DNA of 64,000 nucleotides. It comes from Saccharothrix saharensis (lineage in GTDB: Bacteria; Actinomycetota; Actinomycetes; Mycobacteriales; Pseudonocardiaceae). The translations under genes and the position numbers were made by a program. Positions 26,647 to 43,981 of this stretch are shown piece after piece (the stretch's first letter is position 1; every line of letters starts with the position of its first letter). The notes under the pieces were generated by a model, which did no database searches, had not been told where the DNA came from, and saw only the letters and a program-made list of their open reading frames with translations. The stretch lies in the NCBI RefSeq assembly GCF_006716745.1, contig NZ_VFPP01000001.1, positions 558,001 to 622,000 of the forward strand, written 5' to 3'.

Positions 26647-26817
26647 ACAGCATTGGTCTTGCGATCGATATCGACTCATGCTGATGTGGGTGTGCTGACG
26701 CTGCACATCCCGCTTCGAGGTGTAACGTATGGTTGCAGGCGATCCGCTTGTCTTGGCGACGATGCGACTCGGACTACGATAGGATTGAGTTCCTTCAACT
26801 TGATGAGGGAGTTGCAG

Positions 26818-27702
26818 ATGAGCGAATCAGATGACGCTGTGGCCCTGAAGGTTATCATGATCGGAGATTCACAGAAACTGCGATCGGTTTCCCGTCGGCT
26901 TGAAGCTCACGCAAATCTGATAGTTGTGGCAGAAGCGGAGTCCGCCGAGTACTCCTACGGCTTGATCCGGCATTGCCGTGACGATGGTGTTCGGGTAAAC
27001 ACAGTGTTTATCGACCCGCTCTCCGACCGCTTCGATCCGCACCAGTCGTCTCTATTCATCTTGAACACCCGAGTGCAGTATCCAGACGTCGTTTTTGTTC
27101 TTCTTGCATCGGAAGCGGATATTCGATCGCGCAGGCCGGACTTTCCCTACGAGATTCGAAACAGGATCGACCACTACTACAGGATAGATCCGTCGGCGCC
27201 GAAGCGATTACTCAACGAAATAACGGACAACGCCATCGACCAGTGCCGATCCTGGCATGCGAGGGTAATCCGCGAACCGGCGCTCCGTCGTCACAAGTAC
27301 GATGTGGCCCTATCCTTCGCTGGCGAGGATCGTGAAATTGCGTCGCAGCTGGCGAGACTCTTGACCGAGCGCGGCATTCGCGTATTTTACGACGATGATC
27401 AACGGGCATCCCTTTGGGGCGCAAACCTCTACACCACTCTGTATGATGTCTACGCTCACGAGTGCCGTTTTTGTCTTCTTTTAGTAAGCAAGGCATACAG
27501 AGATAAGATGTGGACGAATCATGAGCGCGTTGCAGCGCAGGTGAGAGCGTTCGAGATGCGTGAACGAGAGTACATTCTTCCGGTCTACTTGGAAGATGTC
27601 TCGATACCGGGCCTGCCGCCCACTGTTGCCCATGTGCAAGTCAGTCTCGGCGTGATAGGAATAGTTGATCTTCTTATCCGGAAGCTCGCTTCGGCCAGTT
27701 GA
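26818..27702 (+). CDS. TIR-domain protein with receiver-like N-terminus
   Basis: 294 residues. ATG 26818 has GAGGGAG six bases upstream. Residues 10-100 look like a response-regulator-type alpha/beta domain (LKVIMIGDSQKLRSVSRRLE, VNTVFIDPLSDR, YPDVVFVLLASEADI). Residues 160-290 form a TIR domain: YDVALSFAGEDREIASQLAR, GIRVFYDDDQRASLWGANLY, CLLLVSKAYRDKMWTNHE with Glu236 at the catalytic position, then YILPVYLED. Bacterial TIR domains of this type commonly cleave NAD+ or make cyclic ADP-ribose products in antiphage defence; activity here is inference. Codon use is noticeably AT-richer than neighbours, suggesting recent acquisition. No partner effector lies alongside. Confidence 0.8.
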   Translation: MSESDDAVALKVIMIGDSQKLRSVSRRLEAHANLIVVAEAESAEYSYGLIRHCRDDGVRVNTVFIDPLSDRFDPHQSSLFILNTRVQYPDVVFVLLASEADIRSRRPDFPYEIRNRIDHYYRIDPSAPKRLLNEITDNAIDQCRSWHARVIREPALRRHKYDVALSFAGEDREIASQLARLLTERGIRVFYDDDQRASLWGANLYTTLYDVYAHECRFCLLLVSKAYRDKMWTNHERVAAQVRAFEMREREYILPVYLEDVSIPGLPPTVAHVQVSLGVIGIVDLLIRKLASAS

Positions 27703-28845: not shown

Positions 28846-28938
28846 GTCACCACGCCAGAGCGGAACAGCAGTCGTCCCTACCCGACCAAACTGAACGAAA
28901 AACGGCCATCCGCCGTGTATCGTGGCTGGTCAAGGAGT
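28846..28938 (+). promoter_or_regulatory. CRISPR leader of array 1
   Basis: Leader core GACCAAACTGAACGAAAAAC, then CCATCCGCCGTGTATCG and GGCTGGTCAAGGAGT directly before the first repeat. Related cores precede arrays at 39222, 41089 and 60580, which fixes the transcription direction as plus. Confidence 0.75.
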
Positions 28939-30108
28939 GTCTTCCCCGCGCGAGCGGGGGTGGTCCGATCCGCTTAGCCCTCGCGTCCACCGCCCTGCTG
29001 TCTTCCCCGCGCGAGCGGGGGTGGTCCGTCGGCCTGCTTCGTGTGGAAGTGGATGCCAAAGTGTTCCCCGCGCGAGCGGGGGTGGTCCCGCCTCCAGGTC
29101 GAACGTGGTGTCCACGTGCCTGTCTTCCCCGCGCGAGCGGGGGTGGTCCCAGCAGGCCCCGGTCGGCCTCGGCGGCGTCGTCGTCTTCCCCGCGCGAGCG
29201 GGGGTGGTCCCGTGGATCAGGCCCATAAGGCTCTCAGCGAGGCGTCTTCCCTGCGCGAGCGGGGGTGGTCCGGCGTACCTCGCGTCGATCGGCTGACCGG
29301 CGTCGTCTTCCCCGCGCGAGCGGGGGTGGTCCCGCCAAGGACGCGCCTGGTGCCTTCGTCCACACGTCTTCTCCGCGCGAGCGGGGGTGGTCCACTGGTG
29401 GCTGCCCAATGGCCTGTTCGCGCGGTCTTCCCCGCGCGAGCGGGGGTGGTCCGTCGGCGAACTCGTTCAGCTCCTTGACGGTGCCGTCTTCTCTGCGCGA
29501 GCGGGGGTGGTCCGCGGCCACCACCCGCAAGCACAGCACCTCACGGTCAGCCCCGACCGAGCGGGGGGTGATCCTCTCGGGCTTCATGGCCCGGCGTTCC
29601 TTCTCGTCTCCCCTGCGCGAGCGGGGGTGGTCCGCAGTCGCCGGTGTACTCCGTCACCAGCGGTTCCGTCTTCCCCGCGCGAGCGGGGGTGGTCCGCGCT
29701 CACCAAGCTGTTCGCCGCGGTCGGCGACGTCTTCCCGCGCGAGCGGGGGTGGTCCTCTCTCGTGCTGTCCACAACTCGTCCAGCCACAGTCTTCCCCGCG
29801 CGAGCGGGGGTGGTCCGAAGCCATGCCCTACCTCAATCCTGCGGCCGGTCTTCCGCGAGAGCGGGGGTGGTCCCCACTGGATCACTGCCGCCGCCGCGCA
29901 TGTCTTCCCCGCGCGAGCGGGGGTGGTTCGCCGAAGGGGAAGCGCTGGCGCATGGCTGGCTTGTCTTCTCCGCGCGAGCGGGGGTGATCCCACGTGGCGT
30001 GTCGTCGGGGATCGCATGGTCGAGTCTTCCCCATGCCAGCGGGGGTGGTCCGTATACAGAGTTCCGGTTGCATAACGGCCGGGCCTTTCCCGTGCGAGCG
30101 AAGATCCC
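28939..30108 (+). CRISPR. Type I-E CRISPR array 1 (20 repeats)
   Basis: 28-base repeat beginning GTCTTCCCCGCGCG and ending AGCGGGGGTGGTCC; CCCCGC/GCGGGG form the hairpin cut by Cas6e. Twenty repeats are countable (28939, 29000, 29061 and so on at about 61 bases), so 19 spacers mostly of 33 bases. Repeats are clean near the leader; the one at 29546 and those after 29700 carry deletions and substitutions, ending with a badly diverged copy near 30082, the pattern of an old trailer end. The array ends 60 bases from the stop of cas6e, tail to tail. Confidence 0.97.
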
Positions 30109-30167: not shown

Positions 30168-30833
30168 TTATGTGTTGCGTGGTGGGGCGAGGGTGAGGAG
30201 GCCGCAGCCGTAGGCTTTGGCGCGTCCGATGCCGGTGGTGAGGGCGTGGGTGAAGGCGATGTGGTCGGTGATGATGAGGTGGCCGTCGAAGCGGACTGGG
30301 TCGATGGTGATGGTGGTGTTGTCTTTGTGGCCGGTCATTCTCGGGACGGGTGAGGGGTTGACGTCGGGTTGGCCGTCGCGGGCGGTGGGGATGACGAAGC
30401 CGTGTTGTTCGCCTTTGCGGATGAGCCAGGTGATCTGGTCGTCGGGTTGGTGGTGTGCGACGCGGCGGGTTTTGCCTTTGAGTGGGATGGGGCGGGTGTC
30501 CTGGGTGGCGTTGGCGAGGAGTCGGAAGGACAGTTTGCGGCCGGGGGTGATGGCGTCGAGCACGGGTTGCAGTGGGCGGACTTCGGGTGTGGTGGTGGTG
30601 TAGTCGCGGGGCAGTTTGATCCAGGTGGGGTTTGTGTGGCTTTGGATGTAGGCGGTGTAGCCGATGTGGGTGGGGTCCAGGCGCCAGAGGACGCCGTGGG
30701 CTTGGCGGGCGGGGATGTCGCCGTCGGTGTCGGGGTAGGCGGACATGACGGTGCGGTGCAGGTCGTGGATGTTGGCGAAGTCGCGGCGGAACTCGCGGGA
30801 CCTGACGTTGACGGTCAGTTTGGTCAGGAACAC
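30168..30833 (-). CDS. cas6e: CRISPR-associated endoribonuclease Cas6e (CasE)
   Basis: 221 residues from GTG 30833, with AGGAGA upstream, overlapping the end of cas5e by 10 bases. Starts FLTKLTVNVRSREFRRDFAN and has HGVLWRLD with a candidate catalytic His, and the C-terminal glycine-rich loop GIGRAKAYGCGLLTLAP typical of CasE. It cuts pre-crRNA at the repeat hairpin and stays on the crRNA as a Cascade subunit. Last gene of the interference operon; in most I-E loci cas1 and cas2 would follow, but here array 1 comes next. Confidence 0.95.
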   Translation of the reverse strand: MFLTKLTVNVRSREFRRDFANIHDLHRTVMSAYPDTDGDIPARQAHGVLWRLDPTHIGYTAYIQSHTNPTWIKLPRDYTTTTPEVRPLQPVLDAITPGRKLSFRLLANATQDTRPIPLKGKTRRVAHHQPDDQITWLIRKGEQHGFVIPTARDGQPDVNPSPVPRMTGHKDNTTITIDPVRFDGHLIITDHIAFTHALTTGIGRAKAYGCGLLTLAPPRNT

Positions 30834-31543
30834 GAGGTCTCTCCTGTGCGGATCATCTCGTCGGTCAGGTCGGTGTCGGCTACCAGGACGTGGCGGGTAC
30901 GGAAGGTTCGTTGGGCGATGCTGACGGGGTGGTCGTGGCGGGGTTCGGCGCCGGGTGTGGTGGGGGTGCAGTCGGTGACGGTCCGCAGCGGGGCTCTGTC
31001 GGTGGCTGGGCGCAGGCGTTCGGTGTTGCGCACGTCGACATCGATTTCCAGCCACGAGTGGGTGGCGATCACGTCGGCGGCGGGTTGTTCACTCAGTGCC
31101 TCGCGCGTGAGGAGAGGGCGGGCGGGAACGAAGGCACGGCGGCCGAAGAACAGTGGCCAGTGAGGGCGATCGACCCGATCATGCAGTTCTTGCAGCAGGG
31201 CGGGGTCGCCCTCGAGTACGACGAGGAAGAGCGCGTCGGCGAGGTAGTAGCGTTCGCTGACCACGGTGCGGTGGCCTTTACCTTCGGTGGTGGGCACGTT
31301 CTGGGTGGTGTGGTAGTCGCGTTCGAGGATGCCTTCGCGGTCGACCCGGACCGCCATGTGCAGGTTCGCGAGCGCCTCTGTCGCCTCGTCGTCTCCGCGG
31401 TGCTTGCCCAGTGCGGCGGCGAGCAGACCCACGACCCCGGATTTGGTGGGTTCGCGGGTGGTGTCGCGGATGATGCCGCGTGATCGGGTGCCCCACGATT
31501 GCAGTGGGGCGTCGAAGCACAGGGCCAGTGAGGCGGTGGTCAT
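30824..31543 (-). CDS. cas5e: Cascade subunit Cas5e (CasD)
   Basis: 239 residues. The N-terminal ALCFDAPLQSWGTRSRGIIR and REPTKSGVVGLLAAALGKHR are the conserved Cas5 opening, and FVPARPLLTREAL is also family-like. It binds the 5' handle of the crRNA and caps the Cas7 backbone in Cascade. ATGA overlap with cas7e upstream indicates coupled translation. Confidence 0.95.
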   Translation of the reverse strand: MTTASLALCFDAPLQSWGTRSRGIIRDTTREPTKSGVVGLLAAALGKHRGDDEATEALANLHMAVRVDREGILERDYHTTQNVPTTEGKGHRTVVSERYYLADALFLVVLEGDPALLQELHDRVDRPHWPLFFGRRAFVPARPLLTREALSEQPAADVIATHSWLEIDVDVRNTERLRPATDRAPLRTVTDCTPTTPGAEPRHDHPVSIAQRTFRTRHVLVADTDLTDEMIRTGETSCS

Positions 31544-32646
31544 GCCGTTGCCGCGGCCAGCAGTCGGCCGGTGAACTCATCGATACCGGTGACGATCTCC
31601 TCGTCCGGCAGGTGGGGCAGCACGCCGGTAACGGAGGCGCCTGCGACGGTGTGCAGGCCGGTGCTGCCGTAGAAGGTGCGCAGCTGGGTGAAGTGGTGGG
31701 CGAGTCGTTCGGTGGAGGCGGCCATGAGGTCGGTGTCAGTGACCGGCTTGAGGAAGGCGTTGGCGAGGTTCCAGGCGCCGGTGTCACGCACGACGCCGAG
31801 CAGGGTGTCCGGCATGGTGCGGGCGGCGGTGGAGTTCTGCTTGCCGCCGGGCACGGCGTTGACGAACGCGTGCAGCCACGCCCGCACACCACGCGCGGCC
31901 AGCTCGGCGTCGTCGCCGAGGTTGTGGGCGAGTTGGGCGAGGTCGACGTTGGCGTAGCGGTAGTAGCAGGCGGAGTTGAAGTCGACGGTGCCGATCATGT
32001 CCGCGCCGGAGTCCTCGGTGGCCTTGAGGTCGTCGACCGCGGTGTAGAAGTCGAACTCGTTGACCACCGCGTGGGTGGACAGCGCGTGGGCGACCTGGGA
32101 GGCGGCGTCGACGTTGAAGTCCTTGTTGTCGGCGATCATCCGCCCGAACAGCGCCACGTCGACCGCGCGGCTGCCGTCGAGGATGCGCTTGGCCTCCGCG
32201 GAGGTGGCCTTGTCCGGCTTGGCTTTCGTGCCCTTCTTCTCGATCTTGGCCAGCGTGTCCCAGTTCGCCAGGCAGTACTCGGCCAGGTGCTCGATCGAGG
32301 ACCGGCCGACGAACAGCAGGTACTGGGTCAGCCCTTTGTTGACGTCGACGCCGAACCCGAGGTGGCCCAGCGCAGCCATCACGATCTCCCGCGACTCCTT
32401 CTCCTCACGGCCTCGTGCCACGAGCAGCTCGGTGGTGCTGTCGACCAGACGCTTGGTCCGCACTCCGGTCTCACCGGCGTCCAGGCCGTGGTAGTTGAAC
32501 AGCAGCCGCGCGGCGCGCTTGAGCGACTGGCTCGAGATCCTGGCGCGGGTGTGTCCGCCGAAGGTCGCCGTCTTGGGCTGGCCGACGTCGTCGCGGTTGA
32601 GGTTGCTGACCGGGAAGGACTGCAGCAGGTGCAGTTCGAGGATCAC
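31540..32646 (-). CDS. cas7e: Cascade backbone subunit Cas7e (CasC/Cse4)
   Basis: 368 residues. Typical opening ELHLLQSFPVSNLNRDDVGQ PK then KTATFGGHTRARISSQSLKR, and later DKATSAEAKRIL and ALFGRMIADNKDFNVDAASQ. Forms the helical crRNA-binding backbone. Overlaps cse2 (ATGA) and cas5e (ATGA). Length and motifs are normal, and no damage is visible. Confidence 0.96.
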   Translation of the reverse strand: MILELHLLQSFPVSNLNRDDVGQPKTATFGGHTRARISSQSLKRAARLLFNYHGLDAGETGVRTKRLVDSTTELLVARGREEKESREIVMAALGHLGFGVDVNKGLTQYLLFVGRSSIEHLAEYCLANWDTLAKIEKKGTKAKPDKATSAEAKRILDGSRAVDVALFGRMIADNKDFNVDAASQVAHALSTHAVVNEFDFYTAVDDLKATEDSGADMIGTVDFNSACYYRYANVDLAQLAHNLGDDAELAARGVRAWLHAFVNAVPGGKQNSTAARTMPDTLLGVVRDTGAWNLANAFLKPVTDTDLMAASTERLAHHFTQLRTFYGSTGLHTVAGASVTGVLPHLPDEEIVTGIDEFTGRLLAAATA

Positions 32647-33257
32647 GATGCGTCTCCGGGTTCGGGTTCTTCGTCGTCGTTGTCGGCGACCGCCTCGGTC
32701 GACCGGCCGTTCCTGGCCGGGACGTGGTAGTCGCGAGCCCAGTTCAGGCGGATCTGGTGGGCGTGGTCGCCGCGGTAGTTCTCGCCGAGCAGCACCACCA
32801 GGTCGTCGAGCAGCTGGTGGTGGTCGATGGGGATGCCGTGGGACGCGAGTAGGCGGACGGTCTGGCGCAGGTGGTGTGACAGGGCGTCGCGGTCGCGTGC
32901 CAGTAGCTGGGTAAAGCGGCGGTCGGCGGCGGTGCCGGTCTTGGCCTTCAGCTCGCCCATCGAGGCGCCGAAGGTGCGGCGGCCCTTCCTGCTGCGCGGT
33001 GGCTGAGGGTTGAGTGCGAACAGCCCTGCCACCAGCAGCCAGGTGTCCTGCTCGGCCTGCGGCGGGTCGTAGGGGAAGACGTACTCGAACGCCTCGGTCT
33101 GCTGCCGGGTGCCGGAGAACATCCGGCGCATCCGTGCCAGAGCCTGACGGCAGTCGCCCGCGTACTTGGGATTCTTCGATCGGGTGCCGCGTTCGCGGGC
33201 GTAGAGGTTGTCGACGAACGCTTGCCGGCGGTCGCGAACGGTCATCGGCTCGGTCAT
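32643..33257 (-). CDS. cse2: Cascade small subunit Cse2 (Cas11e, CasB)
   Basis: 204 residues from ATG 33257, which overlaps the cse1 stop. All-helical protein with RKGRRTFGASMGELKAK and LLARDRDALSHHLRQTVRLL, which match CasB proteins. It contacts the displaced strand and stabilises the R-loop. The tail is acidic (DNDDEEPEPGDAS). An in-frame extension upstream lies within cse1 and is not needed. Confidence 0.93.
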   Translation of the reverse strand: MTEPMTVRDRRQAFVDNLYARERGTRSKNPKYAGDCRQALARMRRMFSGTRQQTEAFEYVFPYDPPQAEQDTWLLVAGLFALNPQPPRSRKGRRTFGASMGELKAKTGTAADRRFTQLLARDRDALSHHLRQTVRLLASHGIPIDHHQLLDDLVVLLGENYRGDHAHQIRLNWARDYHVPARNGRSTEAVADNDDEEPEPGDAS

Positions 33258-34852
33258 TCCTCCTCCCGGGGGATGTAGTTGCGCACCTCGTGGTCGAAGG
33301 TGCGGATCAGCGTGGTGAGGCGGGTGAGGAACCGGTCGAGGTACTTGGCCATCAGCAGCAGGTCGGCCGCCTCGGCCTGGGCACCACCGGTCCACCGCTG
33401 CGCGGCGTGTTGCGCGGTGCGGCGCACGTGCCTCGACCATGCCGTGACCGCCGCGGTGGAGGCAGTGCCTTCGGGCCATGCCGTCGCCAGGTCGGTGAGC
33501 AGGGTGGCGAAGGGCGCGGTCAGCTTGGGCCAGTAGTCCAGATCGAGGGTGCTTGACGGCTTTGCGCGTTTGTCTTTGCGGTAGTCGCGTTCCATGTGCC
33601 GCAGCGCGGCCCCGGCGTTGTCGGCCAGGCTGATGGCCGTGCCGATCAACGCGCCCAACACCTCGTCGTCGGCCCTCAGCAACGCCACCGGCGCCGGCAC
33701 GTGATCTTCCAGGTAGGTCTCGACGACCGAGTTGTTGTCGTCCAATTGTTGCCCGTACACCCGTAGTGTGTAGACCGCGTCAGCCGGGATGTAGCCGTGC
33801 ACGACACGGTCCGGGATCGCGTGCAGCGTTCTGGGCCGCAGGCGGGACTTGTTCTCCTCGCGCCGGTCGGTGAGCAGCAGCTCCACGCTGTGCCGCCACA
33901 CGCCGCGCACCGGGTGCAGGCGCACCGGCAGCAGCGGCTTGTCCTTCATCGGTTTGCCGTTGGTCCCGACCGGTTTGCGGAACGCCGCCATCTTCTCCTC
34001 ATCGGCCGATGACCCGTCGTACCGGTCCCCCGGCGTCACGACCACCCCGTCCACCACCTGCCGGTCGTCGACCTGACGGTGGAACAGAAGGATCCGCCGT
34101 GACTGCCAGGTCAGCAGATCCGTCCAGCCTCGCGAGACCTGCGAGGTCTCCGGCTCGCCGCCCGGTGGCTCCGGCTGTTCCCACACGGGGTGGTCGTCCG
34201 GCCACGTGCCGTCCGGGCGCTCCAGTTCCGGATCGTAGCGAAGGGCGTTGAGCAGCAGGGTTTCCTTCAGCGTCGCGCCTTCGACCAGCACCACCCCCAT
34301 CGTGTTGCAGGGGGCTTTCTGCGACGACTTGTCCTTGTTGAACGGTGTCTTCATCCCACCGGGGTCGAACGCCTGCGCGGTGACCAACCAGCGGGCCGCC
34401 TCCGCGGGCGTCATCGTCACCCGGTCCGACGCCGTCGTGTGGTCGAACAACGTGACCTTGTTGCCCACCGCCCGGTGTGGCACCAGCTTGAACGGGGTGC
34501 TCGGCGTCAGCTTCGCCAACGCCGGGCACTGGAAGAACGGGCGCACCGGATCGAACAGGTCGAACCTCGACTCCTTGCCCGTCAGGTACTTCCGCAGGCG
34601 GGTGCGGGGCAGCTCCGGGTCGCGCCACAACAGGCCCCAGTCCCGCTCCGTTTCCGGCCCATAGGCACGGTGCAGCAGAGCCAACACCACACGGTGCAGA
34701 GCCGCAGTCATCGGCGGCGTGTCACCGGTGATCCGCCGCAGGTCATGAGCACGAAGAAGAACGTCCTCCAGACCGACCTCATCGGCGTAGCCATCCATGT
34801 CCAGCACGGGAATCCAACGTTCGCTGAGCAGATCGAACCGAGCGCCGGTCAC
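33254..34852 (-). CDS. cse1: Cascade large subunit Cse1 (Cas8e, CasA)
   Basis: 532 residues. Starts with FDLLSERWIPVLDMDGYADE, the conserved CasA opening, followed by SRFDLFDPVRPFFQCPALAK, AARWLVTAQAFDPGGMKTPF and a helical C-terminal bundle. This subunit recognises the PAM and recruits Cas3. Its start overlaps the stop of the small Cas3-CTD gene (34849-34852). Complete. Confidence 0.95.
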   Translation of the reverse strand: MTGARFDLLSERWIPVLDMDGYADEVGLEDVLLRAHDLRRITGDTPPMTAALHRVVLALLHRAYGPETERDWGLLWRDPELPRTRLRKYLTGKESRFDLFDPVRPFFQCPALAKLTPSTPFKLVPHRAVGNKVTLFDHTTASDRVTMTPAEAARWLVTAQAFDPGGMKTPFNKDKSSQKAPCNTMGVVLVEGATLKETLLLNALRYDPELERPDGTWPDDHPVWEQPEPPGGEPETSQVSRGWTDLLTWQSRRILLFHRQVDDRQVVDGVVVTPGDRYDGSSADEEKMAAFRKPVGTNGKPMKDKPLLPVRLHPVRGVWRHSVELLLTDRREENKSRLRPRTLHAIPDRVVHGYIPADAVYTLRVYGQQLDDNNSVVETYLEDHVPAPVALLRADDEVLGALIGTAISLADNAGAALRHMERDYRKDKRAKPSSTLDLDYWPKLTAPFATLLTDLATAWPEGTASTAAVTAWSRHVRRTAQHAAQRWTGGAQAEAADLLLMAKYLDRFLTRLTTLIRTFDHEVRNYIPREEE

Positions 34853-35211
34853 AGGTCATCATCGGTGTACACACCGAGCTCCTCGTCGTAGTGCAACACC
34901 CGATCCCCCACTACGCATCGTCCGTTCTCGAACACCAGCGCCCGGTGGTGCAGCAACCACGGCTGCGCCGCGAACGCCGCCGGCACCGCGGCCGCCTGCA
35001 GTGCGTGCACCACCGCCTCGGGGACGCCGTCGGGCGCCGACAACACCGTGGCATCGTCGAGCACCTGCGCCGTCACCGCCGTTGACAGTCGATCATCGGC
35101 CAGGTCGAGCGGCTCGTTACCCGACACCGTGGTCACCGCACCGGAGGACGGATCGCGTTTCAGCAAGGCGACGGACACCGCCATGGTCAACGGCTCGGGA
35201 TGCTCAGCCAC
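34849..35211 (-). CDS. Cas3 C-terminal domain as a separate reading frame
   Basis: 120 residues from GTG 35211, overlapping the cas3 stop by eight bases in another frame. It does not look like a distinct Cas protein: LHHRALVFENGRCVVGDRVL then HYDEELGVY matches the extreme C-terminus of actinobacterial Cas3 proteins (HRAVVF-x-GRC-x-GG-x-LDPELGL pattern), and MAVSVALLKRD fits the start of that domain. Removing one G from the GGGGG run at about 35220 would fuse it to the helicase frame with the linker SGAGGVAEHPEPL. Hence it is a natural split, a frameshift mutation, a programmed frameshift, or a homopolymer sequencing error. Confidence 0.8.
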   Translation of the reverse strand: MAEHPEPLTMAVSVALLKRDPSSGAVTTVSGNEPLDLADDRLSTAVTAQVLDDATVLSAPDGVPEAVVHALQAAAVPAAFAAQPWLLHHRALVFENGRCVVGDRVLHYDEELGVYTDDDL

Positions 35212-37582
35212 GCCGCCTGCCCCCGCTCCGAAGGTTCGTCACGTACTTGGGGATGTCGGTCATCTCGTTCAACCGCTCCAACGCCATCGGCATGGGCACG
35301 TACCACTCACGGGCCTGAGCCCGCTCCCTGTCGACCGCCCGGCGATAGGTCTGCGCCCACGCCCGCCACGACGCCTCCCACCCGGCCGGACATTCGACCG
35401 CGTCCTCCGGTCCGTAGACCGCGTCGATCAAACCGGACACGTCGTCCGGGCAAGTGATCATCGACCGCTCACGCAGCAACGCCCACGTCCTGGCCAGTAG
35501 GTGGAAGCGGTACACGCCGTGCAGACCCTTCGGGAACTTCGGCCCCTCCGGTGTGTCGGTCACACCGGTGATGCCCAGCACCAGCTCCCCGCGGTCATCG
35601 CGCCGGTGTCGATGGACACGGCCGGCGCGTTGGATCAACAGATCGACCGGTGCCAGATCGGTCAGCATCGCGTCGAAATCCAGGTCCAGGCTCTGCTCCA
35701 ACACCTGCGTACCGATCACGATTGCGTGCCGCCGCCTGCCGTCACGGCCGAACCACGACCGCAGATCCGCCTCTTTACGACGGCGTACCGCGTTGGTCAT
35801 GTCCCCGTGCAGCAGGACGACCTCCGGCCGTCGGTCCGGGGGCAGGTGCTCGACCTTGTCGCGCACCGCCTCGTAGGTGGCCTTGGCCCGCGGTCTCATG
35901 TTGTGCACTGCGGCCACGGCACGCCCACCCTCAGCGTGCTTGATCAACCAGTCGGCGACCTCATCGTCAGCTATGCCCTTGTCCAGTACCACCCGCCGGT
36001 CGGCGTTCAGCTCCTCCGACACACCGACCCCCACCACCCTGGCCGGTTCACGGCCGGCGATCGTGACCCGCGGGTAGGAAGCGCTGCCGTCCTCGGCAGG
36101 AACCGCCGAGGGCGCCACACCGAGCAACCCGGACTGCCACGCCACGACCAACTCACGACGACGATGCGACGGCAAGGTGGCCGACATCAGCACGACGGAC
36201 GCGCCCAACCGCCCCAGCCACATCAGCAGCCGATCCAGCAGCTTCGACATCTGCGTGTCGTAGGCGTGCACCTCGTCGAACACCACGACCTTGCTCGACA
36301 ACGCCGTCAACCGCACGAACAAGTGCCCCGACCGCACCACCGACTTCAAGGCCTGATCCAAGGTGCCCACCCCCAGAGGTGCCACCAGGCTCTTCTTGCG
36401 GGTGAACCACTCCCCCGCCGCCACATCCGAATCCTCACCGTGATCCCGACCGACGTCGGACGGCTCGACCGCACGTTCCTCCAAGAACTCCCTCGCCTCG
36501 GAGTGGATCAACCGCACCGCCGTCGAATCACCCAAACGCTCCAACAACTCCTCGACCTCACCGAGGAACTGATGACTCGTCGCCTTCGTCGGCATCGCGA
36601 CGTAAACCCCGCTCAACTCCAAATCCCGCACGAGCGTGGCAGCCACCTGCAGCGCCAGATTCGTCTTACCCTCACCCGTCGGCGCCTCGACCACCAGCAT
36701 CGTCGACCCGTCCCGGCCAGCCGTCAGCGACTCCGCCGCCCGCTGCACCGGCCTGACCTTGTCGTGGTGCGGGAACAGCACGCCGAACGACGTATCGACA
36801 GGAGCGACCCAAGCCCGCAACCCGGCCGTCCGCACGGCCTCACGGGCATGCTCCCGTGCCTGCTCCACATAGTCGCTCAGATCGAACCCACCCTGCGGCG
36901 AGGTGTAGTTCGACGTGTCCGACGCGATCCAGTCACTCACCGACGTCAACGCCGCCAACGACACTGCCACCTCGACACCAACCCGCACCCCACCCCAAGG
37001 CAACGACCCCGGCTCAGCCAAACCCAGCGCCCGCGCCACCTCCACCACCATCTCGTCACGCCACCCGGCCCACCGCCGACCGCCGTGATCGTTGACCTCA
37101 CGCCTCGCCTGCTCGACCTGATCGACAGCCGGGAAGTAACCGTGATGACCACCCAACGCCGCCGCGACCGTCACCGCCCCCGGCGTCTCCATCCCCCACC
37201 GCCGCAACATCCCCCGCACGTGCAACGCCGTCACCGTCCCGTGCGGCGTGTCCACCTTCCCCACCCCCTTCGGCCGCTCCACATACAACACATCCACCGC
37301 CGCCACCGGCAGCCGCTCCACAGCCACATCGGCACGAAGAGCCTGGAACCCCGGCGCGTACTTCCCCAGGTCATGCAGACCGCACAGCAACGCGATCCAG
37401 CCGTCAGGGTCGCCAGTGGCGGAGAACGCGGCTCGCAACTCCCTCACGCACCCAGGCCCCAACAGGACCGGCATCAACAGCTCTGCGACCGCAGCCGTGT
37501 CGACGATGTGACAGACCAACGGATGAGGCAACCGTGTCCCGGACGCCTTCCCCCAGGCACCCCACACGGGAGGTGACCCCAC
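35204..37582 (-). CDS. cas3: CRISPR-associated nuclease-helicase Cas3 (lacking its C-terminal domain)
   Basis: 792 residues from GTG 37582. HD nuclease motifs: LPHPLVCHIVDTAAV (His20, His25), LHDLGKYAPGF (His70-Asp71, Lys74), GGHHGYF (146-147) and SDWI (216). Helicase: Walker A EAPTGEGKT at 299-307, VVVFDEVHAYD around 436, SATLPSHRRRE, and LIQRAGRVHRHRR. It unwinds and degrades target DNA after Cascade recruitment. The frame ends at NLRSGGRRRG just after the helicase, and the expected C-terminal domain is in the next frame. First gene of the minus-strand interference operon; the promoter should be in 37583-37700. Confidence 0.95.
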   Translation of the reverse strand: MGSPPVWGAWGKASGTRLPHPLVCHIVDTAAVAELLMPVLLGPGCVRELRAAFSATGDPDGWIALLCGLHDLGKYAPGFQALRADVAVERLPVAAVDVLYVERPKGVGKVDTPHGTVTALHVRGMLRRWGMETPGAVTVAAALGGHHGYFPAVDQVEQARREVNDHGGRRWAGWRDEMVVEVARALGLAEPGSLPWGGVRVGVEVAVSLAALTSVSDWIASDTSNYTSPQGGFDLSDYVEQAREHAREAVRTAGLRAWVAPVDTSFGVLFPHHDKVRPVQRAAESLTAGRDGSTMLVVEAPTGEGKTNLALQVAATLVRDLELSGVYVAMPTKATSHQFLGEVEELLERLGDSTAVRLIHSEAREFLEERAVEPSDVGRDHGEDSDVAAGEWFTRKKSLVAPLGVGTLDQALKSVVRSGHLFVRLTALSSKVVVFDEVHAYDTQMSKLLDRLLMWLGRLGASVVLMSATLPSHRRRELVVAWQSGLLGVAPSAVPAEDGSASYPRVTIAGREPARVVGVGVSEELNADRRVVLDKGIADDEVADWLIKHAEGGRAVAAVHNMRPRAKATYEAVRDKVEHLPPDRRPEVVLLHGDMTNAVRRRKEADLRSWFGRDGRRRHAIVIGTQVLEQSLDLDFDAMLTDLAPVDLLIQRAGRVHRHRRDDRGELVLGITGVTDTPEGPKFPKGLHGVYRFHLLARTWALLRERSMITCPDDVSGLIDAVYGPEDAVECPAGWEASWRAWAQTYRRAVDRERAQAREWYVPMPMALERLNEMTDIPKYVTNLRSGGRRRG

Positions 37583-38030: not shown

Positions 38031-38390
38031 GTGTCCCGCGCGAGCGAGATAGTCCGGATGCGATCGCCTGCCGGCACGCACCTGACGCAGGCGCTTACCA
38101 CGGGCCGCTTTACCTGCAGCGACATAGAGGACCATCCCATCTGCGTAGGGCACCGGTGTCGTATGGCGGCCGGTGACGTGGTCGCCTCTTTCCGACTCTA
38201 GAGCGAACCGCATACAGAACGAGGTCGGGGTTAGGTACAATCCCTACGAAGGGTTCTCCCCGCACAAGCGGAGATAGTCCCTTGGCGCGCTCGATGGTGG
38301 CGCAAGTTTCCCGCGCAAGCGGGGGTGGCCCATCCCGGCCGCGCGGGCTCGCCGGGCGGGCTTGGTTTCCCCACGCGAGTGGGGGTGGTG
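38031..38390 (+). CRISPR. Relic CRISPR array (about 4 decayed repeats)
   Basis: Diverged repeat copies at 38031-38055, 38253-38280, 38306-38331 and 38365-38390, each keeping the CCCCGC-type stem (for example GTTTCCCCACGCGAGTGGGG). Two of them end AGATAGTCC instead of GGTGGTCC. Spacing of the last three is about 53-60 bases. No leader precedes them. Looks like the trailer end of an array left by rearrangement. Confidence 0.7.
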
Positions 38391-38439
38391 TACCTGCCTG
38401 TAACCTCGTCCGTGCAGTTAGAGAGCGTATGAAGCCCAA

Positions 38440-38684
38440 TGCCTTGAAGCGCTCACGGGCACTACTACCGTCCGCCGTGGCATCGTCCAGGACGGCACAA
38501 TGACCGTACACTGCGTCCGCGACATCTAAACCCTGCTCCGCGAGGAGGACGGGCTCGTCGAGTACGGCCCCGAAGCATTCGACGATCCCGACTTCGAATC
38601 CCGCAACGTCGTCATGCTCTGGGACGACAACGGACGAGCCGTCGCCGGCGGCACCAACTACCACGACCAGGACGACGACCTGTC
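38440..38684 (+). pseudogene. cas1: cas1 (Cas1e) C-terminal relic
   Basis: Frame-1 reading: RRGIVQDGTMTVHCVRDI, TAA at 38527, then TLLREEDGLVEYGPEAFDD, VVMLWDDNGRAVAGGTNYHD. This fits the C-terminal end of Cas1e (VRDIQ-x-LL followed by an acidic linker and VxLWDxxxGxVPGGxNY); the stop stands where Gln is usual. Everything upstream, including the active-site Glu/His/Asp region, is missing. Position directly before cas2 supports the call. Not functional. Confidence 0.75.
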
Positions 38685-39140
38685 ACCGTCATCGTCGTCG
38701 CCGCCTGCCCTACCGGACTCCGCGGCGACCTCACCCGCTGGCTCCTCGAAATCTCCCCCGGCGTCCTCGTCGGCAAAGTCAGCAAACGCGTCCGCGACCT
38801 CATGTGGGCACGGGTCATCGACATGGTCCGCACTGGACGCGCCATCATGGTCCACCACGCCGACAACGAATAAGGACTCGACTTCAAGGTCCACCACCAC
38901 ACCTGGCACCCCGTCGACTACGACGGCGTCCAACTCATGCTCCGCCCCGCCGACCCGCAACCCGACGACACCACTCCCGCACCCGGCGGCAAAAACTGGA
39001 GCACAGCAGCCCGCCGACGCCGCTACGGCAACGCTGAACCTCAACCGGTACAGCGCGACCACCCTCGCCGACAGACAACCCGCCGAGACCCGCCAACCGC
39101 GACCCTCCGCCAGCTCCGAAGCGAGACACGGCCACTCTAA
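38685..39140 (+). pseudogene. cas2: cas2 (Cas2e) with lost start and internal stop
   Basis: Clear Cas2e sequence: TVIVVAACPTGLRGDLTRWL, LEISPGVLVGKVSKRVRDLM, WARVIDMVRTGRAIMVHHAD, then NE followed by TAA at 38871, and in the same frame GLDFKVHHHTWHPVDYDGVQ and the tail GKNWSTAARRRRYGN. Family members have Gln at the stop (NEQGL). The initiating Met codon before TVIVV is replaced by GTC with no ATG in frame upstream. With cas1 destroyed too, the adaptation module is dead. Confidence 0.92.
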
Positions 39141-39221
39141 GCTACTCGGCGGCCCGTGCGTTCCCCGAGCAAACCGATGCCAGAAACGACTCCGCCGCTG
39201 TAACGTGCCTGGTCAGGAAGT
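39141..39221 (+). promoter_or_regulatory. CRISPR leader of array 3
   Basis: Between the end of cas2 and the first repeat; ends GTGCCTGGTCAGGAAGT, like the other leaders, but its upstream half (ACCGATGCCAGAAACGACTC) is more diverged. cas2-leader-array is the ancestral I-E order. Confidence 0.65.
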
Positions 39222-40030
39222 GTCTTCCCCGCGCGAGCGGGGGTGGTCCCCAGTCGGCGGCTGCGCACAGGCCGATCTGGCGGTCTTCCCCGCGCGAGCG
39301 GGGGTGGTCCCGAATACGTCGTGTCCGCGCCGGGAACCAGACGGTCTTCCCCGCGCGAGCGGGGGTGGTCCGTCCATAAACGACGAGCCCAGGGCCCACG
39401 ATCCGTCTTCCCCGCGCGAGCGGGGGTGGTCCGGCGGACGCCGGGTCGTGTCCTTCGCCGTCGACGTCTTCCCCGCGCGAGCGGAGGTGGTCCGGCTGGC
39501 TGTGGGTCGTCGGCAAGGTCGTCACCGTCTTCCCCGCGCGAGCGGGGGTGGTCCATCCACGACCCGACAGCCGGCGTCTCCGTGCTCGTCTTCCCCGCGC
39601 GAGCGGGGGTGGTCCCAGGACCCGTACGCGCACCCGGCCGTGCCGGTGGTCTTCCCCGCGCGAGCGGGGGTGGTCCCAGGACCCGTACGCGCACCCGGCC
39701 GTGCCGGTGGTCTTCCCCGCGCGAGCGGGGGTGGTCCCAGGACCCGTACGCGCACCCGGCCGTGCCGGTGGTCTTCCCCGCGCGAGCGGGGGTGGTCCCC
39801 GCCTGACCTGCTCGGCCGGGTCCATCGCGGCGTCTTCCTCGCGTGAGCGGGGGTGGTCCCAGGAGGTCGACCTGGCGCACGGTCTCGTGCCGGTCTTCCC
39901 CGCGCGAGCGGGAATGGTCCTGAGGCTCGAAGCGCTGATTTACAAGCGGTTCAGTCTTCCTCGCGCGAGCGGGGGGTGGTCCGCCCGTGCTCGACGCCAT
40001 CGGGACGGGCAGCACGTCTTCCCCCGCTGA
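39222..40030 (+). CRISPR. Type I-E CRISPR array 3 (13 repeats plus a partial end)
   Basis: Repeats start at 39222 and every 61 bases to 39954, followed by a truncated copy at 40016. Spacers are 33 bases. The spacer beginning CAGGACCCGTACGCGCACCC occurs three times in succession (39616-39648, 39677-39709, 39738-39770), showing repeat-spacer unit duplication. The last three repeats have substitutions (CTCGCGTGAGC, GAATGG), as at a trailer end. Confidence 0.97.
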
Positions 40031-40860: not shown

Positions 40861-41005
40861 TGGGTCGCTTCGGCCGCCCCTGCCCGGCGGGGGCCCACTG
40901 CCCGTCGCCACAACAGGCGAAACTCAGGCTCGCCGTCGGGTCGGAGCACCGTCGTGAGGCTCCTGCTGAGAGTAGCCAGCGGTCGCTACAGGTCGGTCAA
41001 TACAC

Positions 41006-41088
41006 CACAGCCAATCAGCAGTCTTCCCCATGCGACCAAACCGAATGAGAATCGACCATCCGGCGTGTATCGTGCCTGGTCAAGAAGT
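41006..41088 (+). promoter_or_regulatory. CRISPR leader of array 4
   Basis: Contains GCGACCAAACCGAATGAGAA, CCATCCGGCGTGTATC and GTGCCTGGTCAAGAAGT directly before the first repeat, closest to the leader at 60496-60579. Confidence 0.75.
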
Positions 41089-42951
41089 GTCTTCCCCGCG
41101 CGAGCGGGGGTGGTCCGCTGGTGGAGAAGCTGGCCGAGCTGACCGGCGTGTCTTCTCCGCGCGAGCGGGGGTGGTCCCCCATCACCTACGCCGAGTTCAG
41201 CCGCCGGATCGTCTTCCCCGCGCGAGCGGGGGTGGTCCGGAGTACCCGCTGGACCGGGTGGCGGCGATTGCGTCTTCCCCGCGCGAGCGGGGGTGGTCCC
41301 GCCTTGGTGCCGATGCGCGCGGTGCCGCAGTGGTCTTCCCCGCGCGAGCGGGGGTGGTCCGCTGACCACGGACGGCGAGCTGCGCCAGGACCAGTCTTCC
41401 CCGCGCGAGCGGGGCTGGTCCGTCCTTCATCTCCTGCAGGGAGCGACCGGTTCCGTCTTCCCCGCGCGAGCGGGGGTGGTCCGTCCTTCATCTCCTGCAG
41501 GGAGCGACCGGTTCCGTCTTCCCCGCGCGAGCGGGGGTGGTCCGGTGATCCGGTGGATGTACCGGCAACTGTTCGCGTCTTCCCCGCGCGAGCGGGGGTG
41601 GTCCGTCCACGGGCAGGGGTTGCGGTGTACGTACACCGTCTTCCCCGCGCGAGCGGGGGTGGTCCGCGGGAGTGGCGGCGCAAGGTGGACGCTGCCGAGT
41701 CTTCCCCGCGCGAGCGGGGATGGTCCGGTGCTCGGCCTGGAGATCGTCTACCCGGGCACGTCTTCCCCGCGCGAGCGGGGGTGGTCCCTCGGCGCGCAGG
41801 TGGCGGCTCGTGACGCCGAGCGTCTTCCCCGCGCGAGCGGGGGTGGTCCGCGGCGGCCGTACCTGAACGTCGAGAAGACCCGGTCTTCCCCGCGCGAGCG
41901 GGGGTGGTCCCAGGACAAGGTTGCTGAGCCGGTGGGGGAGTTGCGTCTTCCCCGCGCGAGCGGGGGTGGTCCCTGCGAGGAGTTGCCGAACAGCTCGTAG
42001 GCCTGGTCTTCCCCGCGCGAGCGGGGGTGGTCCCCCGCAGTCGTTCGCCCCAACGTCCCTGGCCGAGTCTTCCCCGCGCGAGCGGAGGTGGTCCGACCTG
42101 GCGCTGGCGGACCGCGTGGCGAACGTGGTCTTCCCCGCGCGAGCGGGGGTGGTCCCAAGGGCGGCCTGCGACGCTCGATCCCGTCCCGGTCTTCCCCGCG
42201 CGAGCGGGGGTGGTCCCAAGGGCGGCCTGCGACGCTCGATCCCGTCCCGGTCTTCCCCGCGCGAGGGGGGGTGGTCCCGGGTTGCGGTAGCCGAAGTCCA
42301 CCGCCCACCAGTCTTCCCCGCGCGAGCGGGGGTGGTCCGTTCGCGACGGTGCGCCGCTGGTGTTCGGGTACGTCTTCCCCGCGCGAGCGGGGGTGGTCCG
42401 GACGTGGTCGAGGTCCGGGTGATCCGGACCGAGTCTTCCCCGCGCGAGCGGGGGTGGTCCCTCGCCGAACACCTCGCTCAGGTCGGCGAGCCGGTCTTCC
42501 CCGCGCGAGCGGGGGTGGTCCGTGCCGCTCCCGCAGCTGCTGCCTGAGGGCGGCGTCTTCCCCGCGCGAGCGGGGGTGGTCCGCAGCGCCGACTCGGCGT
42601 ATGCGACGCGGTGGTGTCTTCCCCGCGCGAGCGGGGGTGGTCTCGCGCCGATGCCCGTCGTGGCCTTCGTGCCGATGTCTTCCCCGCGCGAGCGGGGGTG
42701 GTCCGGCCGGCCGCACCTACACGGTCGAGACCTCGACGTCTTCCCCGCGCGAGCGGGGGGTAGTCCCCCGCTGGCCCGGATCGCCCGCTTCAACACCGAG
42801 GTCTTCCCCGCGCGAGCGGGGATGGTCCGACCAACGGCTCCGGCGCGGCCACCGACCGGTTCGTCTTCCCCGCGCGAGCGGGGGCGGTCCGAGGACCCGG
42901 AGCTGGGCGGCCTGATACGCGTGGTCTTCCCCGCGTAAGCGGGGCGAGTCT
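41089..42951 (+). CRISPR. Type I-E CRISPR array 4 (31 repeats)
   Basis: Thirty-one repeats from 41089 at 61-62 base intervals; the last (42924) is diverged (CCGCGTAAGCGGGGCGAG). Two spacers are duplicated in tandem: the one starting TCCTTCATCTCCTGCAGG (between 41422 and 41515) and the one starting CAAGGGCGGCCTGCGACG (between 42156 and 42249). Most repeats match the consensus exactly, with scattered single changes (for example at 41394, 42067, 42250). All open frames here (VFPARAGVVR patterns) are translations of the repeat. Confidence 0.98.
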
Positions 42952-43499
42952 TCCTCACGCGCGCGGCCCGTCAGTCCATGGCCACCCTCGTCCAATCACG
43001 GCATGCCAGCGCGTTCGGACCGCACGCCTCGACCAGACGCCGTGCCGACGTACCCCAATCCGAAGACGCCTGCGCAGGGTCTCAGCCAAGATCGGACCCC
43101 GGTGCGCTTCCTAATGACGAGCGTCCTCCAACCGAGCCTGATGCAGGAGCGCAGCCGCCGCGTCGAATACGACATCGTCGCCACCATGAGGTGCCCTCCT
43201 CGACCACCGCATCATCCCGGACGACGACCGTCCCGTTCACAGCCCGCAACAGCTCCGGCCCGACCTCCGCCCAGCCGATCAGCAACAACGGGCCGACAGC
43301 GTCGAAGGCGGCCTTGCCGAACTGACCGGCGACCAACGGATCAGCGACGTCAACGCCAACGTCACCAGACTCGAGAAATCAAAAGGCGTAGAGCAGGCTG
43401 AAGCTACTCCCGACTGGCACCGCACACGGGCACCGGATGGACCGACCGCACCCTCACCACGCTGACCGCCCGGCTCACTCCGCTCGAGACCCCGCACAG
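42952..43499. other. Gap after array 4
   Basis: No supported gene. A frame around 43190-43450 reads GGLAELTGDQRISDVNANVT RLEKSKG in part, which might be a coding relic, but nothing identifies it. Confidence 0.35.
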
Positions 43500-43502
43500 C
43501 CC

Positions 43503-43730
43503 GTCCATCGACATCGCCTCATGCCGCGTGGCCGGCTGGGCCACAGCCGATCATCTGCGCACCGACCTGGTCGCCCAGGCGTTGGACAACGCCGTGCGAC
43601 ACCGCCGCCCCGAACCCGGAGTGATCTTCCACGCCGACCGCGGCTGCCAATACACCTCCCGCCGGTTCGGCGCCCTCGCTCGCACCGCCCGCTGGGTCCG
43701 CTCCGTACTCGCCTACCGCAGCTGGACTCC
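43503..43730 (+). pseudogene. IS3-family transposase (orfB) fragment
   Basis: Reads DIASCRVAGWATADHLRTDL, VAQALDNAVRHRRPEPGVIF, then HADRGCQYTSRRFG. This is the DDE-domain segment of IS3-type transposases (GWA-x-xDHxRT, HSDRGxQYTS with the second catalytic Asp). The sequence before and after is unrelated, so only a scrap remains. Confidence 0.75.
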
Positions 43731-43981
43731 CGCAGGTAGGCTGAGCCACCCTCCTTTCGCGGCCTGCGCGACAACCTCGCGCCTCACGACGTCCGTACGA
43801 CGAAGCCCGACTGAAATCCGGATACTCCTGGGCACGACCGGCGACCGGAATCGACATCGTGGGCGCCTGGGCGCGTAGTATGCGGAGTCTTCGCCACCGA
43901 CATGCCCAAACCAGTTGCGTCGTGGGAATACTTGGCGTCGTACGCGGACAACCAGCGGCGCGACGCGGCATCTCTGCTCGG

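Follow-up and report, generated by a model that had tools for sequence, protein, structure and literature searches.

The window analyzed here, a 64,000-nucleotide stretch of the Saccharothrix saharensis genome (C1:558001-622000 of a single-contig, 8,924,967-base (8.92-Mb) genome), appears to hold what is left of two type I-E CRISPR-Cas systems of different origin. We propose, with a probability of roughly 0.78, that an interference operon of one lineage (B) reads arrays that were once written by the Cas1-Cas2 of another lineage (A), and that A has been deleted here, leaving the memory frozen. The two systems would have met in this locus. System A would have had the canonical layout array-cas3-cas8e-cse2-cas7-cas5-cas6-cas1-cas2-array, from which the stretch between the far end of the upstream array and the last quarter of cas1 was lost; the cas1 tail, cas2 and array 2 would have remained, with cas1 and cas2 then decaying. 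System B would be a separate effector-only I-E operon (Cas3, a Cas3 C-terminal domain, Cas8e, Cse2, Cas7, Cas5, and Cas6) with no adaptation genes of its own, which most likely relies, for the crRNAs that it processes and uses in interference, on arrays with A-type repeats and leaders, its new spacers having been supplied in trans by A's Cas1-Cas2. With A gone, the three arrays would be a read-only memory. The expression and activity of B, its use of the window arrays, the supply from A in trans and the order of these events are what we infer from the observations set out below.

The adaptation genes of the window are dead. About three quarters of cas1 is gone and the last quarter is left: with the Cas1e protein of a relative as query, residues 241-314 of 315 were aligned to 38458-38676 (E 5.7e-26), a looser alignment beginning at 38425. 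This relic (38458-38684, forward strand) carries a TAA at 38527-38529, and its frame continues beyond the usual end. The generic cas1 models PF01867 and TIGR03638 do not match it; PF01867 gives weak matches even to Cas1e proteins of this genus (E 1e-5 to 1e-7), and because a missing match to it says little by itself, the relative's protein served as query. The cas2e pseudogene that follows (38682-39030, forward strand) matches PF09707 with 107.7 bits (cut-off 24.7) at 38685-38936 (forward strand), over profile positions 2-86 of 86 and with one internal TAA (38871-38873). When the pieces on either side of this stop were searched alone, the 5' piece gave 80.5 bits with PF09707 and 43.8 bits with TIGR01873 (cut-off 33.15), and the 3' piece a weak 12 bits with PF09707. 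These scores exclude a chance match. The start position of cas2e, 38682, has GTC in place of the ATG or GTG of the six relatives used for comparison, and the 3' end of the gene is altered by a 1-nt deletion near 39031. In five of the six relatives cas1 extends into the start of cas2; at that point in the window the cas1 frame has no stop and the cas2 frame no start. The bacterium is thus probably no longer able to record new infections in its CRISPR memory.

A first-pass annotation, made from the letters alone, had described a cas2e recognizable from end to end without a start codon, a cas1e reduced to its tail, a TAA in each, and an adaptation module that was dead, all of which agrees with these results. 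It had also placed both stops at positions usual for Gln. This is correct for cas2, where the relatives have Gln; in cas1 the TAA replaces a Lys. Recoding or suppression of TAA at Gln was therefore rejected, because one of the stops stands at Lys and cas1 is mostly missing. The dN/dS of cas2 is 0.15 against G016 and 0.06 against G014, two relatives in the genus, which suggests that most of the divergence arose under selection and that the loss is recent.

Adaptation could in principle still be alive, either by readthrough of the stops or through a Cas1 outside the searched families that continues to acquire spacers. Each remaining frame has a single internal stop, and some of the leader-end repeats are clean, but the extent of the cas1 truncation and the combination of a non-start codon with a frame change in cas2 speak strongly against it. 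Moreover, a second cas1-cas2 pair, for which the first-pass annotation had advised looking, was found neither by profile nor by protein searches: across the 8,924,967 bases there is no match to PF01867, TIGR03638 or PF09827, no second match to PF09707 and no second match to the Cas1e protein. We regard continued acquisition as very improbable, and an error of sequencing or assembly as more improbable still, given that the genome is a single contig, that besides a large truncation there are three small changes in cas2 and another in cas1, and that similar debris is present in other genomes.

In contrast to the adaptation genes, the interference genes are kept, as the first-pass annotation had held: the operon is complete, all of it on the reverse strand with genes that overlap one another, and the motifs of Cas3 are retained. 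The cas3 gene (35204-37582) encodes a 792-aa protein that exceeds the cut-offs of PF18019, PF22590, and PF00270 and keeps its HD and helicase motifs in an alignment, although it has no C-terminal domain. The type I-E signature protein Cse1/Cas8e is encoded at 33254-34852 (PF09481, 351.3 bits; TIGR02547, 209.2 bits, cut-off 70.05), followed by cse2 (cas11; 32643-33257, likely start ATG at 33257; PF09485), cas7e (31540-32646; PF09344), cas5e (30824-31543; PF09704), and cas6e (30168-30833, likely start GTG at 30833; PF08798), each above its cut-off. Cas5 and Cse2 match only their own Pfam families. The other hallmark of type I-E, a working cas1-cas2, is absent from the window's genome. Cas6e is 88-91% identical to its counterparts in G006, G008, and G009 (L052-L054), although Cas8e is only 58% identical, a difference that recombination between lineages at the cas6-array end might explain.

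Between cas3 and cas8e sits a 120-aa gene (34849-35211, reverse strand) that overlaps both neighbors, and its product can be identified as the missing C-terminal domain of Cas3. It matches Pfam Cas3_C with 36.3 bits (cut-off 27); a profile of its family hits residues 848-947, at the C-terminus, of the solved Cas3 4q2c (E 1.5e-6) and can also be aligned to the corresponding end of lineage A Cas3 (hhalign probability 93%, E 3.4e-7). The AlphaFold model of the protein has a mean pLDDT of 92, and its top 14 fold matches are all Cas3 structures, two of them at E < 0.001; NCBIfam and PADLOC gave no match. Among the 36 distinct lineage B loci described below, the domain is a separate ORF in 28, in seven (L068, L070, L072, L073, L079, L081, and L112) it is joined in frame to Cas8e at the N-terminal side, and it was not found in one (L069). 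In the five lineage A loci examined, Cas3 carries its own C-terminal domain. Two lineage B loci also have a second stand-alone ORF upstream of cas3 that resembles the Cas3 HD domain (L071 6481-6954 and L074 6055-6900, in Kutzneria and Amycolatopsis).

The distinction between the two lineages was drawn from a sample of 25 genomes of the genus, the window's own being counted where it matches. PF09707 has matches in 8 of these, PF01867 in 11, Cse1 in 12 (11 over the cut-off), and Cas1e, by protein search, in 9. Lineage A is arranged on one strand as cas3-cas8e-cse2-cas7-cas5-cas6-cas1-cas2-array. Its cas1 and cas2 are open in G001, G007, G013, and G024, whereas in G014 and G016 cas1 lies in two frames. 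In G003 (L036, about 4000-4961) cas1 is cut at residue 275 beside an ORF that by eye is transposase-like, and no cas2 was found at the locus; this is another adaptation loss. G012 has one locus with A-like effectors and no cas1-cas2, and another that is a third, more distant I-E (L056, L035). Lineage B is represented in the genus by the window, G006, G008, G009, and a second locus of G024, with Cas8e proteins 55-59% identical to that of the window, and in the fetched stretches of the other four loci neither cas1 nor cas2 was found. Two stray pieces were also seen in the genus: a second, truncated cas2e-like piece of 42 residues in G007 (L033 9569-9694), distant from the I-E locus of that genome, where cas1 and cas2 are open, and a partial Cse1-like ORF in G024 (L057 9361-10143), in a stretch where the window proteins as queries found no other cas gene.

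When the relic and the operon are compared with these lineages, they fall on different sides. The relic is closest to G014 and G016, with the cas1 tail 92-94% and cas2 before its stop 94-95% identical; the dN of cas2 is lowest to the same two among the six relatives, and the leader of array 2 is by eye most like their lineage A leaders. We therefore assign the cas1/cas2 relic, on its sequence, to lineage A. The effector genes, judged by the Cas7 tree and by a Cas8e identity to A of at most 40% (about 30-36% in this genus), group with lineage B and not with A. In the Cas7 tree of 54 rows, from which L077 and L114 are left out, all 34 B rows lie on one side of a branch with support 100/97 that is present in all 200 bootstrap trees. 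The dead adaptation genes and the effector genes thus seem to differ in origin.

This bears directly on the view, taken in the first-pass annotation, that one system has lost its own adaptation module. Such a decay might have come about by an inversion of cas3-cas6 that cut the system's own cas1 and left the tail on the other side: operon and relic are divergent neighbors, as they would be after an inversion, and in one lineage B locus, L074, cas6 is directly followed by a cas1 tail, by cas2 and by array-like repeats. However, a relic 92-95% identical to lineage A adjoins a Cas8e that is so much less similar to that lineage, and none of the 36 B loci has an intact cas1-cas2 pair. The inversion would also leave the 5' part of cas1 beside cas6; the only tblastn match to cas1 in the window is at 38425-38670, so there is no such piece and this form of the idea was rejected. 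Decay of a single system is already disfavored and we consider it improbable; the first-pass view has to give way to one in which the relic is A's and the interference genes are B's.

The extent of lineage B was surveyed in 390 genomes of the family, using Cas8e matches at E <=1e-20 with three candidates scored per genome, and Cas1e matches with five per genome. The Cas8e identities leave a gap: 31 loci, each in its own genome, reach at least 45% (B), and 74 loci do not exceed 40% (A). Of the 74 A loci, 58 have a Cas1e of 250 aa or longer within 15 kb, as do two of the 31 B loci (Fisher p 2.9e-12, which is only a guide as the loci are related); at both of those B loci cas2 is cut or none was found. 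Anywhere in the 31 B genomes, a Cas1e of at least 250 aa occurs in 13 and only a relic, that of the window, in one, while 17 have no match, so that supply in trans is not current in those 17. A scan of 84,980 species genomes, which relies on two short peptide patterns, returned 17 loci (L067-L083, of which L067 repeats L053) with identities of 43-63%, from Pseudonocardiaceae, Streptosporangiaceae, and Micromonosporaceae. Twenty further loci were added, five of them repeating earlier ones, to give 36 distinct B loci in all. An intact cas1-cas2 pair was found in the fetched stretch of none of these, an absence that is weaker for the loci near contig ends (the stretch of L077 is only 4.4 kb). One of the B operons (G185, L112 579-5259) has upstream of it an extra divergent Cas8e (26%) with a Cas7 piece and an array of another repeat.

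Broken pieces of cas1 or cas2 are nevertheless found at seven of the 36 B loci. Besides the window these are L074, where the cas1 tail (by eye) after cas6 is followed by an open cas2; L113, with a stop in cas2 and no cas1 found; L125, with a cas1 tail (by eye) and a stop in cas2; L108, where a cas6 tail and a full cas1 precede a cas2 cut at about 42 aa; L109, whose cas1 is missing its end and where no cas2 was found; and L082, with fragments. Such debris raises the possibility of an effector swap, in which a B cassette inserted into, or took the place of, a canonical A locus, whose arrays it then made its own, while the leftover cas1-cas2 decayed. The recurrence of I-E debris beside B would fit, as would the order cas6 tail-cas1-cut cas2 in L108 and cas1 tail-cas2 behind B's cas6 in L074. 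On the other hand, 29 of the 36 loci are without debris, and a comparison of the neighbors of 21 B loci (ORFs of at least 90 aa, not all of them identified) revealed no shared mobile element. A swap differs from the reading we prefer solely in having B arrive in A's locus, and we hold it to be possible but rather doubtful.

Two other ideas were tried. The neighbor comparison showed no tns-like shared family and, within its scope, gives no support to TnsB/TnsC as a replacement adaptation module. Nor is carriage of lineage B on Streptomyces plasmids supported by the matches listed (40 of 86 plasmid records, 36 of them Streptomyces): their identity is at most 33.2%, and the three plasmid records viewed have the canonical form, cas1-cas2 and a long Cas3 included.

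The window holds three arrays, all on the forward strand. Array 1 (28939-30052; leader 28846-28938) is convergent with cas6e and has 17-19 repeats depending on the method, with a degenerate far end. Array 2 (39222-39981; leader 39140-39221, its left edge approximate) has 13 repeats and includes one spacer in three tandem copies, and array 3 (41089-42890; leader 40996-41088) has 30-31 repeats by method; its leader and first repeat are 84% identical to those of array 1. The arrays fit the I-E format, in which repeats measure about 28 nt and spacers about 33 nt (33 nt in 51 of the 61 spacers here). Their repeat is common to lineages A and B in this genus, and by eye and alignment their leaders belong to the same type as the lineage A leaders and the leaders of most B-adjacent arrays compared. 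Given the shared leader type, A's Cas1-Cas2 could have served the window arrays. No array-like run was present in the fetched stretch of 15 of the 36 B loci (including the 4.4 kb of L077); the B locus of G024 is among these, and the A locus of the same genome has an array.

Several further features of the arrays and their surroundings were recorded. Tandem spacer-repeat duplications occur in arrays 2 and 3 (39616-39770, 41422-41515, and 42156-42249; one spacer three times, two spacers twice), and recombination without Cas1-Cas2 could make such duplications. An ORF with an rve integrase core (43402-43875; 38.4 bits, cut-off 32.6) lies just to the right of array 3, and a TIR-domain protein (26653-27702; TIR_2 58.3 bits, PADLOC PDC-S66 59.3 bits) is encoded 1.1 kb to the left of the array 1 leader. 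Searches of phages for protospacers of the window arrays gave no convincing target; the best match pairs a 33-nt spacer with an unannotated Salmonella phage record of 2,652 bp (93.9%, E 5e-4), and the others are weaker.

Compared with relatives that have an intact cas1-cas2, the repeats next to the leader are more mutated in the window, in keeping with arrays that are no longer being extended. Among the first eight repeats from the leader, changed repeats number 2 of 48 in intact A, 10 of 54 in broken A (G003, G014; p = 0.032 against intact A), 6 of 24 in the window (p = 0.014), and 36 of 77 in B-only genomes (p = 9e-8), where several arrays are so short that the first eight repeats are the whole array. 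Intact A here comprises six arrays of G001, G007, and G024, because four without a recognized leader motif were dropped (L034 of G013, L052 at 7123, L128 at 19408, and L129 at 418). A second count, restricted to the first six repeats of arrays with at least 12 and taking in L128 at 19408, gave 2 of 36 for intact A, 1 of 24 for broken A (p = 1.0, no effect), 5 of 18 for the window (p = 0.034), and 11 of 30 for B-only (p = 0.002); in both counts the repeats and loci are non-independent samples. In the B-only genomes G006 and G009 some arrays have clean leader ends, so that either the loss is recent there or another source exists; G009 carries a Cas1 of another type.

A comparison of leader-end spacers between close relatives, which the first-pass annotation had recommended, was made for another B-only pair, G008 and G009, which have no Cas1e match and are 97.9% identical over the cas locus. 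The array beside cas6 (L053, L054) has five repeats in one and nine in the other. The leader-adjacent spacer is identical and the last two spacers agree if point changes are allowed, with differences that are internal only, which indicates that at this array spacers have been lost and none gained since the two diverged.

The remains around the cas1 tail also suggest how system A was removed. Just upstream of the tail, in the same orientation, are three degenerate CRISPR repeats (38253-38391, forward strand; the first recognized by eye), and in the A loci of G001, G007, and G014 an array stands upstream of cas3 in a corresponding way. A deletion that ran from this upstream array into cas1 would explain what is left. 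The scenario draws on locus architecture; a deletion junction in a sister strain was not found. For clade B as a whole (36 loci from Pseudonocardiaceae, Streptosporangiaceae, and Micromonosporaceae), we lean with modest confidence toward a general form of the same history, in which a system with no adaptation of its own, and with its Cas3 C-terminal domain split off or carried on Cas8e, free-rides on the arrays of canonical I-E systems with the same repeat and is later left with frozen immunity beside cas1-cas2 ruins.

Where cas1-cas2 are dead and the interference genes next to them are kept, the decay of one system is the easy reading; the comparison made here splits the modules by origin. 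Loss of adaptation is as such ordinary; the new part is clade B together with the adjoining cas1-cas2 debris. These sequences suggest an effector-only I-E variant that depends on other systems for its memory, and it can therefore be asked directly whether a crRNA effector persists without an integrase of its own and for how long frozen spacers stay useful. A search of titles and abstract openings, mostly outside subscription journals, did not find the split Cas3 C-terminal domain or clade B, and the parts of PMC12231136 and PMC12669027 available to us contain no description of the split domain.

Cas3-Cse1 fusions occur in some actinomycetes, and they resemble part of clade B in that a Cas3 part is joined to Cas8e. 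In clade B, by contrast, only the C-terminal domain of Cas3 is detached, being either free or on Cas8e, and the helicase and nuclease are in a separate protein. The detached domain, with its fusion to Cas8e in some species, is a natural test of the role of this domain in bringing Cas3 to Cascade.

The canonical actinomycete I-E system (lineage A; the S. avermitilis I-E of PMC4762764, as far as the accessible text goes) is like the window in its effector order and kind of repeat, and the relic belongs to it; it differs in having cas1-cas2, a Cas3 with its C-terminal domain attached (in the five loci examined), and Cas8e proteins distant from that of the window. Another comparison, from the sections open to us, is an I-E system of Streptomycetaceae that lacks cas1-cas2 and carries tnsB/tnsC (Faure et al. 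2019, in the description given by PMC12231136). This system has the same effector set (cas3-cas8e-cse2-cas7-cas5-cas6) and may be identical with the I-E5 of PMC12669027, which lists the variants I-E2, I-E3, and I-E5. So far as this variety can be compared by description, it would differ from clade B, where the 21 loci compared showed no tns-like neighbor in common among the ORFs identified. The minimal Streptomyces I-E found beside STAND NTPases (Shmakov et al. 2018, in the account given in the available portion of PMC12231136) lacks cas1, cas2, and cas3; it is likewise without adaptation genes, but B keeps a Cas3 with its motifs. I-E2 and I-E3 are also derived I-E variants, defined in the part of PMC12669027 at hand by an HNH on Cas5 and a PD-(D/E)xK on Cas11, and differ from the window, whose Cas5 and Cse2 have no such additions in Pfam. 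Finally, the Flavobacterium VI-B system uses a II-C Cas1 in trans (PMC8092290) and Cas1 is shared between types I and III (PMC8482600), both according to the passages accessible to us. The likeness lies in an effector locus that lacks its own adaptation genes and depends on a co-resident system; there the partners are of different types, whereas here both would be type I-E with the same repeat.
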